Positions 2,291 to 63,808 of a stretch of 64,000 nt of DNA are shown here, in pieces. Every line of letters begins with the position of its first letter. The stretch's first letter is position 1. The notes under the pieces were generated by a model. The model was not told the DNA's origin. It searched no databases and saw only the letters and a list, made by a program, of their open reading frames with translations. Location of the stretch: assembly GCA_963921795.1 (NCBI GenBank), contig OY997650.1, positions 22,215,963 through 22,279,962 on the forward strand, given 5' to 3'. This DNA comes from Nannobrachium achirus (lineage: Eukaryota; Chordata; Actinopteri; Myctophiformes; Myctophidae). A program made the translations under genes and the position numbers.

Positions 2291-2755
2291 CAGGGGTGTC
2301 ACACCAAATTCTGGGCCCTGGGTACAAGGATTCACTGCGGGCCCCCATGAATGTTCATCTTCATATAGGGGAATGGGGTTTAACCCATTTAGACTGGGAA
2401 CGCATTATTACGCGTAATTATTTTTTTTGAAGAAGAAGAATCTATGTTTCTGTGCCAGTGGTGCTCAAACTTTTTAATTTTTCCAAAATGATATGTATTT
2501 GACCACGGACCGCCATCTCAAAATATTTAGTTCCAGGGACCCCCCAGAAGCAAAATTTGAGTTACAAATGTTTGCTTAAAAAATACATATATTCAAAGAT
2601 TTGCACACCTTTTCACGACTTTTCAAGTGCCGCACTGCAAGCTTGTAGATCTGCTATTTCTCAATAGCTAACATAAAATGATTAAGGCCCCTACACCTTG
2701 GGCCCTAGTAACTCAGTCCCACTCCCCATCCCCCCCCCCCCTTGTGACGCCCCTG
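2291..2755 (+). mobile_element. hAT-type MITE, family G copy 1, with 8-bp TSD
   Basis: The ends read CAGGGGTGTCACACC and GTGACGCCCCTG, so the terminal repeats begin CAGGGG(T/C)GTCAC. The flanks carry an exact 8-bp duplication TATGTGAG at 2283-2290 and 2756-2763. Eight-bp duplication and CA...TG ends are hAT hallmarks. Internally there is a second hAT-like start (GCCAGTGGTGCTCAAAC, 2454) that resembles Charlie-type ends, and a half hairpin module (GCAAGCTTGTAGATCTGCTATTT, near 2639-2661, written here only in part). No transposase is encoded, so the element is non-autonomous. The second copy is at 30601-31083. Confidence 0.85.
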
Positions 2756-2779
2756 TATGTGAGCATGCATGTATACAAG

Positions 2780-2909
2780 TGTGCGTGTGTGTGTGTGTGT
2801 GTGTGTGTGTGTGTGTGTGTGTGTGTGTGTGTGTGTGTGTGTGTGTGTGTGTGTGTGTGTGTGTGTGTGTGTGTGTGTGTGTGCGCGTGCATGTGTGTGT
2901 GTGTGTGTG
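2780..2909. repeat. (GT)n microsatellite, about 130 bp
   Basis: Nearly uninterrupted GT repeat from 2780, with a GCGCGTGCAT interruption near 2882. It directly follows the right target duplication of the 2291-2755 element. Confidence 0.97.
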
Positions 2910-3057
2910 AGAGAGAAGCACTTTATGTGTGTAAACTCTGTCCACGGTGTCACAGCTGCCTGTGTACCCAGCCCTCCACGCAGACCTGGTACTCCAGCTC
3001 AGAGAAACATGTGGGGTCTGGTGTTAATTGCAATTTGGCTAATGAAGTAAACTTAAA

Positions 3058-3114
3058 GAGAGAGAGAGAGAGAGAGAGAGAGAGAGAGAGAGAGAGAGAG
3101 AGAGAGAGAGAGAG
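3058..3114. repeat. (GA)n microsatellite
   Basis: About 28 uninterrupted GA units. Confidence 0.97.
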
Positions 3115-3170
3115 ACACGGGTGAGAGATTATACTGGAAAGTGAACAAGTGAGGGACACAACACCAAGGA

Positions 3171-3649
3171 AGTATGTTTACTTAAGTAATGTACTCAAGT
3201 ACAATTTTGAGGTATTCGTACTTTACTTGAGCATTTCCAATTTCCAGTACTTTTACTTCTACTCCACTATGTCTCGGTTCCAAATATTGTACTTTTACTC
3301 CACTACATTTATTTGAAAGCTTTAGTTACTAGTTACTTTGCAGATATACATTAGAATATTATAAAACATACACTGACCACTTGTAGCCCTATTTTATACG
3401 TGGGGATTTTGAAAATAGACGATCTACAACGCGACGCGTTGTGAGCTTGTAGATCAGCTATTTTCAAACATTTTGTTCTTTTACTTTGAGTACTTTAAGT
3501 ACATTTCAATGCCAACACTTTTCATACTTTTACTCAAGTACATTTTGAATTCCGGACATGCACTTGTGACAGAGTATTTCTATATTGCGGTATTGATACT
3601 TTTACTTAAGTAAAACATGCATGTTGTGCGAGTACTTTTTCCACCACTG
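3171..3649 (+). mobile_element. hAT MITE family B, copy 1
   Basis: The body is made of ACTTTTACTT / TTACTTAAGTA / TACTCCACTAC motifs typical of a widespread fish MITE. The right end GAGTACTTTTTCCACCACTG is intact at 3649. The left end has decayed (no clear CAGTGGTG). A hairpin module with a shortened left arm lies at 3409-3470 (left arm GATCTACAACGC, right arm GCGTTGTGAGCTTGTAGATC, then AGCTATTTTC). No clean 8-bp duplication could be read because the left edge is degraded. Confidence 0.75.
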
Positions 3650-3689
3650 CACGACACAAGAGACGGAGTGAGGAAGAGAGACAATGACT

Positions 3690-3788
3690 CGTAGGAGGAG
3701 AGAGAGAGGGAGAGAGGCGAAGAGAGGGCAAAGAGGAGGACATGGAGGAGTAGAGAGAGAGAGAGAGAGAGAGAGAGAGAGAGAGAGG
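3690..3788. repeat. (GA)n-rich tract
   Basis: AGAGAGGGAGAG-type purine run ending in a pure (GA)n at 3752-3787. Confidence 0.9.
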
Positions 3789-3799
3789 GAGGAAGGAAA

Positions 3800-61114: not shown

Positions 61115-61211
61115 TTGCGCGTGCACACACACACACACACACACACACACACACACACACACACACACACACACACACACACACACACACACACACACAC
61201 ACACACACACA
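61115..61211. repeat. (CA)n microsatellite
   Basis: About 45 CA units after GCGCGTG. Confidence 0.98.
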
Positions 61212-61622
61212 GATAGGGAAAACAAACACTCATCCATGGAAATGGATGCTCACTCATCATGAGCATGTGCATACATCTGATCTACGGTACTGTATAGGCA
61301 CAAAGCACATGCTCATGCATACCAGTTCTGTACACCTCTAAACACACATGCACACAAGGGAAAAACGGCATTACATTTTCCTATTGAGAAACTCTATGTA
61401 CTTTTGTGTTACTTTTTAAGTGAACCATTCGTAAGAAGAAAACATATTTGAAGTTATGTTTACTAGGCACACGCAGGCGCGCAGGCACGCTCGCAACACA
61501 CACACACGAACGAACGCACGTGATTGGGCATCCATGTTCCTGTTGTGTGTAGGGTAACGTGTGGTATACAAGCACAGTCAGGGGCCCATACTGTATACGG
61601 TATATACCTATATATGGAGACC
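61212..61622. other. Unique stretch with CACG phrases
   Basis: Short CGCAGGCGCGCAGGCACGC block at about 61470; ends in CTATATATGGAGACC, the split host sequence of the following element. Confidence 0.35.
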
Positions 61623-61630
61623 CCTGGTAC

Positions 61631-62793
61631 TAGGGTGACCATATTCTGAATCCCCAAAAAGAGGACACTCTACCCGGCATACCACACGCACGCACGCACG
61701 CACGCACACATATATATTAGCCCAAAATAATCATATTTAAACAAGAGACCCCTCCACCCTTACGAGCACAAACACTACAGTTGAGGCATTACATTTTGTA
61801 TAATTCTATTCTATTGAGAAAATAGCAGATCTACATGCTTGGTAGATCGGCTATTTTCACAATTTCTGCCTCTAATATTTGTTTAATTTGCCATTTTAGA
61901 GGTACTCATACTGTTGAGTGAGAAAACAATGTTGCACATCAAGTTAATCATCTGGGGACCCCTCAAAATAATTTGGAGACCCCCCCCTGGGTCCCGACCC
62001 ACAGGTTGAGAACCACTGCCCTATACCACTATTATTATTAGTTATGTATTTATTTTTGAGGGGGTTCCAATTGACCCTTTACAGATCCACTGATTTAAAG
62101 TGCTCTTGACTCCTGTATGAACGTTCAGCTTTGTATTACAAAGAAACTAAATAAAATATACGGTGGTTTCTTCAAACCACCGTATCTTCAGCTTTACAAG
62201 GTTGTAGCCTACAACAAAAACATATTCTGTCAATTTAGTTAGCAGAAGAGCTCTCACCTCGCACAGACTGTCTTGTACTTTGCAGTGTCTAAATACCTTT
62301 AGTTGTGATGGAATGGACACAGAAGTGCCAGCTTTTAATGCAGACTGCAGAGTGAACGCTCTGCTTCTCATTTGGTCACCAAGACGAAAACACTGGCACT
62401 TGTCGTGCATTTCATCAGTGTAAACCAGCATTAATTGCGTTTGCAGTGCTATCGTTCGGCTGAATCGGCTCTGCGCAGCGCAAGCTGCCGAGCTCTGCTC
62501 TGAGTCTGTCTGAACAGCGACGCATCTGAACGAGGGAGGGAGGGAGGGATCGCAGCGGAGACAGCAGAGTAGTATGAATAATACACGTTCCGGGGTTAAG
62601 GGGTGGAAATCCGTCTTTCACGCTGTGTTTACAAACGAACCACTGAACGTGCATTGTAAATGCCCATGATTTAACGCTGATATGCGCGAAACCCCGGACA
62701 TTTGAAGGAATCTATAAAACCCCCCCCGGACAGGCCGGACAGCCCCCTAAAAGAGGACATGTCCGGGCAAAAGAGGACGTTATGGTCACCCTA
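61631..62793. mobile_element. 1.16-kb TIR element with exact 8-bp TSD
   Basis: Ends TAGGGTGACCATATTCTGAA and AGGACGTTATGGTCACCCTA, 13-bp perfect inverted repeat (TAGGGTGACCATA). The subterminal AGAGGACA / AAAAGAGGAC phrases occur at both ends. Exact duplication CCTGGTAC at 61623-61630 and 62794-62801. The duplication size suggests a hAT-related (Tip100-like) element. The interior holds a CACG repeat (61684-61712) and a nested family E fragment (61745-62018). A 94-codon minus-strand frame (62147-62431) has no recognisable transposase motif. It is non-autonomous or badly decayed. Confidence 0.85.
61745..62018 (+). mobile_element. hAT (Charlie-like) family E, 5'-truncated, nested copy
   Basis: From AGAGACCCCTCCACCC to CACAGGTTGAGAACCACTG. 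The hairpin 61813-61860 is shortened to AAAATAGCAGATCTACATGC-TTGGTAGATCGGCTATTTTC. The right half matches 58169-58578. Confidence 0.78.
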
Positions 62794-62831
62794 CCTGGTA
62801 CCCATATATGGAGATCCATGTACTGTATATG

Positions 62832-62867
62832 TATGTATATATATATATATATATATATATATATATG
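62832..62867. repeat. (TA)n microsatellite
   Basis: About 17 TA units after TGTATATGTATG. Confidence 0.95.
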
Positions 62868-62975
62868 TAACGGAGGTGATCCAAACCTCCCCACCCGGTT
62901 TCGAACCCGGGTCTCCCGTGTGAAAGTCCAATATCTAACCATCACTCCAAAGGGACATCCCTATGGAACGAGAGC
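62868..62975 (-). mobile_element. tRNA-Glu-like SINE head or decayed tRNA copy
   Basis: On the minus strand GTGATGGTTAGATATTGGAC then TTTCACACGGGAGACCC and GGGTTCGAAACCGGGTGGGG: A-box-like, a CTTTCAC anticodon-loop-like segment (TTC) and a B box GGTTCGAAACC. Acceptor-stem ends do not pair well and there is an (AT)n on the 3' side, so a retroposed or SINE-derived copy is more likely than a tRNA gene. It abuts the CTAG end of the neighbouring Helitron-type copy. Confidence 0.55.
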
Positions 62976-62990
62976 AGATACTAGACTTTT

Positions 62991-63462
62991 GAAGCTTCAG
63001 GCTGGGGCTGCGACTCTCTCCGCCACATATATATAAATAATATATGCTGTGAGAGCCCAAACATGCTACTCAGTTATTCGTTATGTGAAAGTCCTATGAT
63101 CTGACATCATACCCTTTTAAGGCCATACATGGAGATCCCTTTCTGTAGAACAGCCACACTGATATGGGCTGTCTTGGCCATCTGTCTTGGCCATATATGG
63201 ATTCTGTTAGTGGTATGTGCCGATGTGGCATCCATATATGGGCATTCCCATATGAAGTCCTGTTAGATATGAGCTTAATATTGATGACATCAGGTAACTC
63301 CTTATATGGGCATAAAAGGGATTCTGTTAGTGTGACATCACAGTGAAGCCGGAGTGTGATGTCAGAGCAGCAAACCCATAGACCGTAAAAAAGTGTACAC
63401 GTCCAGACGGACGGAGTCATCATGTGCCGTTTCACATACTAAACTTTGACCTTCGGTCGCAA
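62991..63462 (-). mobile_element. Helitron/Helentron-type element, third copy
   Basis: On the minus strand it starts TTGCGACCGAAGGTCAAAG and ends CCTGAAGCTTCAAAAGTCTAG followed by T (short hairpin TGAAGCTTCA just before CTAG). The block GAAACGGCACATGATG and the TGATGTCA phrases match 40997-41584. Length 472 bp. Confidence 0.72.
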
Positions 63463-63808
63463 CAACACAGTGGCAACATGGTATACAACACAGTAGAAGA
63501 TCTATTTGCGTCTTTTAACCACACCCGCGGATGGATCCTGGCAAGGCATAATATGCCTTGATTTTTCAAAGTTACTGTATGTGAAAACACTCGGATTTGC
63601 TGGCAAGGGTATGAGCAGACGATGTTTTAGCTTACATCTGGCAGTCAAAGAGTTAAGAATCCCTATTTTGCGCAAATTTGTCAAAATCTTTCAAGGTTTA
63701 CTGTATAGCAGCTGCAAGCTCACAACGCAATGCCATGCAACAGCAACACGATCTGAGTGGATATTTTCACAATTTGTTATATGAATATAGGGCTTTAATG
63801 CTATATTG
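63463..63808. other. Unique stretch with a decayed hairpin module
   Basis: At about 63705-63775: AGCAGCTGCAAGCTCACAACG then CAATGCCATGCAACAGC and ATATTTTCACAATTTG; the right arm is largely lost. Confidence 0.45.

Follow-up and report, generated by a model that had tools for sequence, protein, structure and literature searches.

A palindromic hairpin carried by several families of non-autonomous DNA transposons in Nannobrachium achirus

Arms of one palindromic hairpin recur along a 64,000-nucleotide stretch of the Nannobrachium achirus genome (GenBank assembly GCA_963921795.1, contig OY997650.1, positions 22,215,963 to 22,279,962; here called the window), where they lie inside transposable elements with unlike ends. 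How did one hairpin come to reside in several families of miniature inverted-repeat transposable elements (MITEs)? An earlier note on this DNA had proposed spread between non-autonomous elements by insertion, gene conversion, or template switching. We analyzed the window and the genome to which it belongs (1.66 Gb, 564 contigs). In our judgment, the hairpin probably spread by hitch-hiking through nested transposition, in which a TTAA-flanked element enters a host MITE and the composite is then amplified.

RESULTS

Occurrence of the hairpin

An arm profile was built from 78 arms, and a score of at least 9 was taken as a match. The earlier note had placed the arms at about 40 positions in the window. 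The profile matched at 38 of the 39 places listed; the remaining place, 46536, has a weak arm visible by eye. Two further arms were found at positions 2640 to 2659 (reverse strand, a family F remnant, absent from the earlier list and inside its overall range) and 15408 to 15421. At a score of at least 11 per arm, both arms were present at 23 places in the window, and the remaining places were single arms or remnants. In all sequence examined, the profile gave 234 matches, compared to 0 in a Markov shuffle. In the window alone, outer arms with at most 3 errors occurred 26 times, compared to 0 to 1 in ten shuffles. These results confirm the recurrence of the arms.

Genome-wide, the exact 20-base arm was counted 54,361 times in its T form (GATCTACAAGCTCACAACGC; 27,213 + 27,148) and 61,188 times in its A form (GATCTACAAGCACACAACGC; 30,652 + 30,536), for a total of 115,549, and the reversed patterns of both 20-mers gave 0 exact matches. 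Sampling of 20 evenly spaced 10-kb segments (200 kb in total, about 185 kb of it non-N) revealed 123 arms with at most 2 mismatches and 93 hairpin loci, 45 of them paired and 48 single. Crude scaling from this small sample would put the genome at close to a million arms and roughly 800,000 loci. Searches of viral_contigs with the T-form 20-mer and of genome_contigs with both forms gave 0 matches; these collections hold viruses and prokaryotes and are uninformative on other fish. In the window, 0 Rfam matches reached the gathering score. The stretch around one hairpin gave 18 Rfam matches, all below the threshold for a known RNA family or microRNA and led by mir-2329 (40.5 bits; E 3.2e-07; gathering score 90). 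Such matches are what any long stem might give.

Family D carries the hairpin within a nested TTAA-flanked element

The host in which the position of the hairpin is best resolved is family D, a hAT-like MITE (CAGGGGTCTTCAA..GTTGAAGACC). In seven D copies, a unit of 153 to 214 bp has TTAA on both sides and encloses the hairpin (window positions 38345 to 38558 and loci L019, L029, L035, L036, L043, and L047). The inverted termini of this unit (CCACTTGAAC) match at 10 to 12 of 14 positions in the seven copies; two more long rows match at 9 of 14 and look like chance. The window unit lies on the forward strand within the D copy at 38187 to 38665 (forward strand) and reads TTAA-CCACCTGAAC..hairpin..GTTCAAGTGG-TTAA, with 10 of 14 terminal positions matching. 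Further D copies, all on the forward strand, were found at 14353 to 14812, at 15567 to 15915 (truncated at the hairpin), and at 63811 to 64000 (left end only, running off the window).

An empty site was searched for with the D flanks joined by one TTAA. Scoring of 40 out of 1,617 first-look candidates gave 41 rows, 39 of which stop at query bases 62 to 66, the junction, while one is the right flank alone (bases 60 to 116). One row, C20:47299437 (L034), continues to base 75, nine bases beyond any other left-flank row. This locus reads GATAT-TTAA-TATAAAAAAGG, with the single TTAA of an empty site. Both ends of D are present at L034, the duplication matches at 7/8 positions, and a later insertion of another element can be seen by eye. 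A TTAA boundary was also seen in a different host: at L004, the terminus seen in D, TTAA-CCACTTGAACCC, likewise starts at TTAA, and by eye the sequence inside it is D-like and the sequence outside it is not. The opposite end of this unit has decayed. Among 217 outward half-flanks of hairpins from the window and the samples, 28 have an AARTGG-TTAA terminus (at most 1 mismatch) within 160 nt of the hairpin, compared to 41 of 3,000 stretches taken at these loci as controls; the terminus is thus about ten-fold commoner beside the hairpin, with several of the 28 looking like chance.

Elements of the piggyBac type have TTAA at both ends, short inverted termini of the form CC(A/C)..TT, and a single TTAA in the empty site. 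The D core has TTAA at both ends, short inverted termini, and one TTAA in its empty site, a combination found in family D only; it differs from piggyBac-type elements in having no matching autonomous element among the loci examined. The evidence from family D thus consists of the bounding TTAA, the inversion of the termini, a single empty site, and the large number of composites; the second host adds a boundary on one side. Insertion, one of the mechanisms proposed earlier, is therefore likely where it can be tested. The mobile unit in D is the TTAA-flanked element with the hairpin at its center and not, as had been proposed, the hairpin alone.

Host families differ in their ends, and several share flanks

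The hosts had been described as one TA-flanked family and several families with 8-bp duplications, and this description holds. An 8-bp duplication at 7/8 or 8/8 positions was found in at least one copy of families A, C, D, E, F, and K, the evidence for C and E being one copy each and that for F one of three copies. All eight positions match in A at 16635 (copy 16457 to 16950, reverse strand, ACAAAAAC) and 29725 (29482 to 29955, forward strand, GGCACACG), L040, L041, D at 14601 (GACTAGCA), L029, L031, L036, E at 58285 (58207 to 58578, forward strand, hAT-like, ATGTAGCT), and F in L020. Seven match in A at 27352, L034, L043, L047, C at 33233 (32965 to 33381, reverse strand), and K in L022. The A copy at 27352 (27207 to 27491, reverse strand) is without the hairpin region, which looks like a deletion. 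Three to six positions match in L042, L030, L035, and F in L022 and L010. The D copy with its hairpin at 38443 scored 1/8, the test being mis-anchored at this end, and the element ends for the test were not located in L037, L038, L039, L033, E at 61813, and K in L005. For family D, this amounts to 8/8 in four copies, 7/8 in three, 4/8 to 5/8 in two, one mis-anchored copy, and one end not located. Family B, which is the "TA-flanked family A" of the earlier note, has a TA duplication in 7/7 window copies tested, and some borders have decayed among the fetched copies.

Tol2 is a fish hAT element with internal Angel-like inverted repeats, and family A is what we take to be a Tol2-like hAT MITE. 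The hosts resemble Tol2, by description and not by sequence, in being hAT-like with an internal foldback; unlike in Tol2, the hairpin is common to several hAT-like families and one TA-flanked family. By their duplications and ends and by analogy with Tol2, families A, C, D, E, F, and K would be of the hAT type and family B of the Tc1/mariner type.

Clustering of the 217 half-flanks gave 28 clusters of at least two members; the others were single. A first single-linkage clustering, which merged 106 of 144 loci, was discarded because the inner arms had been left in, and it was redone with the outward half-flanks. Relatedness of flanks was examined by profile searches against 4,340 decoys. On one side of the hairpin, clusters 3, 11, 24, 21, and 25 are related above the best decoy in at least one search direction. 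On the other side, the profiles of clusters 16 and 18 match cluster 7 above the decoys (10.2 versus 2.8 and 7.9 versus 6.1), and in the opposite direction the cluster 7 profile gives them 7.3, under its best decoy at 8.6. Clusters 13 and 20 and single F loci are also related. Families B, C, E, and M showed no flank likeness to the other named families in this search; C matched one single locus, L015:1576, at 11.5 versus 9.0. A likeness between A and F beside the hairpin was seen by eye only and is absent from the results of the decoy-controlled search. The claim that the families share neither termini nor bodies thus stands for the termini, which are unrelated, and falls for several families that share flanks outside the hairpin. 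Because of these shared flanks, captures are fewer than had been claimed. Independent hosts are, as far as sequence comparison indicates, fewer than the clusters and more than one.

In the window and the samples, B nearly always has the hairpin: it is kept at 34/36 left and 27/29 right termini of B, in D at 7/10 and 5/6, in C at 5/6, in E at 7/9, in F at 9/9 and 10/11, and in A at 6/11 and 6/8. Family B is large, with 28,117 exact left borders genome-wide. The sequence C-TA directly follows the arm in 37 of the 217 half-flanks (26 in B, 4 in M, and 7 single loci, two of them B-like), and the contexts beyond that TA differ among hosts. At L010:7860-8580 and L020:3243-3597, F elements have two hairpins, one toward each end, and another hAT-like element between them. 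At L001:2005-2120, a single arm stops abruptly in another repeat-like stretch (ATTCAATTCAATCTTTATTTCAGATCC).

Copies without the hairpin are mostly independent deletions

Joined-flank searches were performed in families C, B, A, and M, with 40 candidates scored in each. The hairpin-poor copies fetched were 7 from C, 7 from B, 6 from A, and 12 from M, plus 6 hairpin-bearing M copies for comparison. The matched empty sites that had been envisaged for families such as B and C did not emerge there or in A and M: copies without most or all of the hairpin are mostly independent deletions, and pre-insertion sites were rejected as their general explanation. In C and A, the junctions vary from copy to copy, and in at least three of the six hairpin-less A copies (L065, L066, and L068) the left side still has AACCACT next to a TTAA or to a slightly altered one. 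Two of seven B copies (L057 and L062) have clean single-TA junctions, and the other five differ. In M, arm stubs are retained in 9/12 copies, L084 lacks more, L083 is clean, and L086 is nearly clean. The exact clean junction of L083 occurs once in the genome and is open to a reading as insertion or as deletion.

The clean B junction has 22 exact occurrences genome-wide; 20 of these were fetched, and L062 is one more. Eight of the 20 share one outer host repeat and represent one event, and L099 and L100 share flanks. The remaining clean copies lie in different places and by eye, with no tree, belong to at least two B subfamilies. The clean B junctions seem to be repeated losses between flanking TAG copies, for which no pre-insertion stage is needed. 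The palindrome is lost often and independently. In the eight copies of one event (L096, L101, L106, L109, L110, L112, L113, and L115), the hairpin-less B element sits inside a multiplied repeat (..GGCCAACAAAGTAAA[B]AATATAACTCATG..), and by eye L015:2449 seems to be the same L096-type composite with the hairpin. Since the composite of those eight copies multiplied without the hairpin, the hairpin is not needed for copying there.

The arms covary, and one mismatch is kept

Gapless alignment of 38 intact copies, selected by a 15-nt inner stretch, revealed a module of 75 nt with a 36-pair stem and a 3-nt loop. Seven hairpins folded as DNA gave z-scores of -9.0 to -15.8. In the 38 copies, pairing is found in 91.2% of 1,368 cells, compared to 83.5% in shuffles. 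Changes on both sides occur at 22/36 pairs, compared to 11.9 in shuffles, and 0/500 shuffles reach 22; covariation is 0.257, compared to 0.126 when shuffled and 0.04 to 0.06 when the partner is slid. These counts treat related copies separately, so that independent events are fewer than counted. Paired variants are specific to families: CAGC and GCACAC in B, GACCTCC in C, and a GGCAC..GTGCC tip in F.

Statistics on individual stem pairs were based on 71 usable of 75 arm pairs, the 4 with gapped arms being dropped. Stem pair 11 is mismatched in 34/71, and 26 of these mismatches are A/C; the next most mismatched are the outermost pair (32) and then pairs 15 and 30 (21 each). The A/C mismatch at pair 11 recurs in families A, B, E, K, and M, with few copies each except in B, and also in one D copy and six loci outside the named families. 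Its orientation is constant within a family where it is seen: C/A in 4/6 A copies, 2/3 K copies (the two being near-identical copies 2 kb apart), and 1/7 D copies (with C/C in 4/7) and A/C in 9/13 B copies (the remaining 4 being C/C) and in 2/2 copies each of E and M. In C, the pair is C/C in 3/3. In F, it is A/A in 19/20, and by eye an A/C mismatch is found at pair 15 instead.

The distance between arms is 4.34 within a hairpin for all 71 and 3.89 for the 56 in named families, compared to 4.69 between hairpins of one family. Frequent whole-arm conversion as the source of covariation is unsupported, the within-hairpin distance being only somewhat lower and pair 11 often being mismatched. A mismatch common to several families amid co-changing pairs favors a single origin of the hairpin and disfavors whole-arm copying; the gene conversion suggested earlier loses ground accordingly. 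Covariation and the kept mismatch are compatible with selection for pairing and do not prove it.

piggyBac transposase genes in the genome

At least 116 piggyBac transposase genes were found (116 scored out of 952 candidates, all above the cutoff), including sets of identical scores. Enzymes for TTAA movement are thus present in this genome. TTAA-bounded inverted ends of an autonomous piggyBac were found at none of five loci, and one unit examined extends past the 8 kb read. One unit encoding a 562-aa piggyBac protein is present in two copies (L069 with L074 to L077), whose flanks have identities of 100% over 2.1 kb and 99.9% over 1.7 kb, the middle lying outside the comparison. The unit is therefore probably longer than about 7.7 kb and may be a large Teratorn-like composite. 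TTAA is scarce near the transposase genes: at L069 to L073, it occurs 0, 0, 1, 3, and 0 times, compared to 15.5, 22.5, 17.4, 10.2, and 12.2 expected from dinucleotides, and one gene has 1 TTAA in its 8,001 surrounding bases. Fifteen random 10-kb samples have 45 to 132 TTAA, compared to 49 to 85 expected, with L021 in excess. One possible reason is that the element avoids its own target site.

DISCUSSION

Under nested transposition, the hairpin would be the conserved palindromic center of small non-autonomous DNA transposons and, in its best-resolved form, the middle of the 153- to 214-bp TTAA-flanked, piggyBac-like MITE. Such elements would have landed at TTAA sites within other MITEs, where insertion would be harmless, and the host transposase, of the hAT type in D, would then have amplified the composite (1,617 first-look candidates), leaving the hairpin in families with unrelated ends. 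A piggyBac-type enzyme presumably made the insertion, and families A, F, and K may have acquired the hairpin by the same nesting route. Pairing of the arms, rather than copying from arm to arm, would maintain it. In families B, C, E, and M, the capture would be older or separate, along another route than the evidence from D covers.

Several observations weigh against this explanation. Only one empty D site was found (40 scored out of 1,617 candidates), and loss between two flanking TTAA copies could mimic it; clean losses at TAG repeats do seem to occur in B (22 exact junctions versus 28,117 exact left borders). Of all the hosts, D alone showed TTAA termini at either side of the core; C and E yielded no TTAA unit, and none of the five loci searched gave the ends of an autonomous piggyBac. 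Family B keeps the hairpin (34/36 and 27/29 termini) and shows no TTAA unit, so nesting leaves this large family unexplained.

Could the hairpin itself be mobile? As a near-perfect palindrome of about 79 bp (GTGAAAATAGC..GCTATTTTCAC), it would insert at TA like a mariner-type palindromic MITE such as human Made1; B, M, and a third context would have received it in this way, and the TTAA elements at an earlier time. Such a scenario is compatible with nested transposition. This reading, which we consider unlikely, would account for the C-TA start of 37/217 half-flanks with differing contexts past the TA, for the clean single-TA junctions of L083 (M) and of L057 and L062 (B), and for a size and shape like those outlined for Made1 (PMC1784062). 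TA is two bases only, however; no half-flank of the A, C, D, F, or K clusters starts with C-TA, 9/12 hairpin-poor M copies retain arm stubs, and the clean B junctions, which are scattered over unrelated sites and by eye over no fewer than two subfamilies, look like repeated TAG-repeat losses. That all hairpin families go back to a single ancestral element, with ends and flanks that later diverged or gave way to others and with no transfer between families, appears decidedly unlikely. The duplications differ (8 bp, TA, and TTAA), the termini are unrelated, the profile search reported no likeness of B, C, E, and M flanks to other named families, and the D core is set off by TTAA ends and an empty site of its own. 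Common ancestry would account for the flank likeness among clusters 3, 11, 24, 21, and 25 and, in one direction, among 7, 16, and 18, in each case exceeding the best of 4,340 decoys, as well as the occurrence of the pair-11 A/C mismatch across families A, B, E, K, and M, one D copy, and six further loci. Such descent, which the earlier note had named as an outcome contrary to its reading, applies in part: some families are one lineage with diverged flanks. Spread between non-autonomous families is retained on the strength of differing termini and duplications, and its extent is reduced by the shared ancestry of several families.

Template switching or gene conversion between single-stranded hairpins, by which elements would swap centers or halves, is in our view highly improbable. 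Breaks do gather at the hairpin, as seen in elements cut in half, in deleted tips, and in the varied junctions of many copies without it, and flank cluster 0 pairs with partner clusters 4, 8, 13, and 20. Yet some of these partners are interrelated and the pairing reflects a two-hairpin element, family-specific variants occur on the two arms alike, a pattern that a single capture per family followed by descent would produce, whole-arm copying would repair pair 11, and the TTAA ends in D are exact. Convergence or chance as the source of the palindrome, for which one might cite the general tendency of MITEs to fold, is ruled out by the identity of the arms: 30-nt arms are common to the families, shuffles gave 0 matches, and 115,549 exact 20-mers face 0 reversed ones.

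Nested transposition has precedents. MER6 is reported to carry a V-SINE domain, a mobile-element domain that hitch-hikes in a DNA-transposon MITE and is amplified with it (PMC6887750). As in MER6/V-SINE, at least as presented there, and in composite or nested MITEs, a passenger from one mobile element is amplified here inside another; in contrast to MER6/V-SINE, what is carried is a palindromic hairpin with covarying arms, which a single genome harbors in many host families and at extreme copy number. Domain hitch-hiking in nested MITEs is therefore of a known kind, and the covarying hairpin passenger and its extreme copy number are new. At the level of titles and abstract openings, the literature yielded no account of a single hairpin common to several MITE superfamilies. 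Made1 (hsa-mir-548) is outlined as a stand-alone MITE of about 80 bp that forms a near-perfect hairpin from two arms of about 37 bp and a tiny loop (PMC1784062). The present hairpin is like Made1 in size, arms, tiny loop, and the TA borders in B and M; unlike the stand-alone Made1, it lies mainly inside larger elements.

A bolder reading is offered only tentatively, and we doubt it more than we trust it. The hairpin would be a shared passenger module that was captured by at least three insertion types (8 bp, TA, and TTAA), with pairing selected through compensatory changes, the A/C mismatch preserved in several families, about 0.5 to 1 million places by extrapolation from the 200-kb sample, and a folded form, as single-stranded DNA or RNA, favored. 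If it is true that selection on the folded form holds the arms together, the conserved mismatch is a direct handle on function. The findings suggest how a single short sequence that lacks a transposase can rise to be among the most abundant components of a large animal genome: it travels inside one unrelated transposon after another. They also provide a natural test of what keeps or destroys long palindromes, with intact, tip-deleted, and lost copies in many hosts. An autonomous piggyBac with TTAA-CCACTTGAAC or TTAA-CCCATTTAG termini, if found, would name the enzyme.

Other hairpin-bearing copies in the window

Besides the copies described above, family A is represented by a hairpin-bearing copy at 3163 to 3649 (forward strand). 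Family B (TCGTCGTTGTCGGG ends) has the hairpin at 18144 to 18409 and 25011 to 25285 (forward strand) and at 22305 to 22574, 28487 to 28769, 49531 to 49798, and 56657 to 56883 (reverse strand). The tip is deleted in the B copies at 9574 to 9792 (forward strand), 19679 to 19899, and 21408 to 21630 (both reverse strand), and the left arm is mostly deleted at 26276 to 26529 (forward strand). TA is present on both sides of the B copies starting at 18144, 19679, 25011, 26276, 28487, and 49531. Family C (hAT-like, CAGGGACGTGCA ends) has copies at 12406 to 12793 (forward strand) and 42200 to 42496 (reverse strand), the latter with GACCTCC on both hairpin arms. A second E copy, with a deleted hairpin tip, lies at 61733 to 62018 (forward strand).

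Both arms of the hairpin are present at 3410 to 3466, 12472 to 12535, 14604 to 14672, 16637 to 16710, 18252 to 18326, 22387 to 22461, 25122 to 25196, 28571 to 28645, 29727 to 29801, 33234 to 33308, 36289 to 36365 (in a rearranged family A copy), 38444 to 38513, 42382 to 42455, 46935 to 46999, 49616 to 49690, 56702 to 56773, 58289 to 58345, and 59557 to 59629 (a separate foldback). The tip is deleted at 19755 to 19789, 21492 to 21533, 27890 to 27929 (family F), and 61818 to 61859, and the left arm is damaged at 55528 to 55581. Single arms were found on the reverse strand at 24021 to 24046 (half B copy), 45285 to 45315 (B copy), 37677 to 37705 (A copy), and 30677 to 30702 and on the forward strand at 30954 to 30977, the last two belonging by eye to family F. 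Throughout the window (1 to 64000), two-base repeats (GT/CA and GA/CT) are very dense and reach up to about 270 bases.

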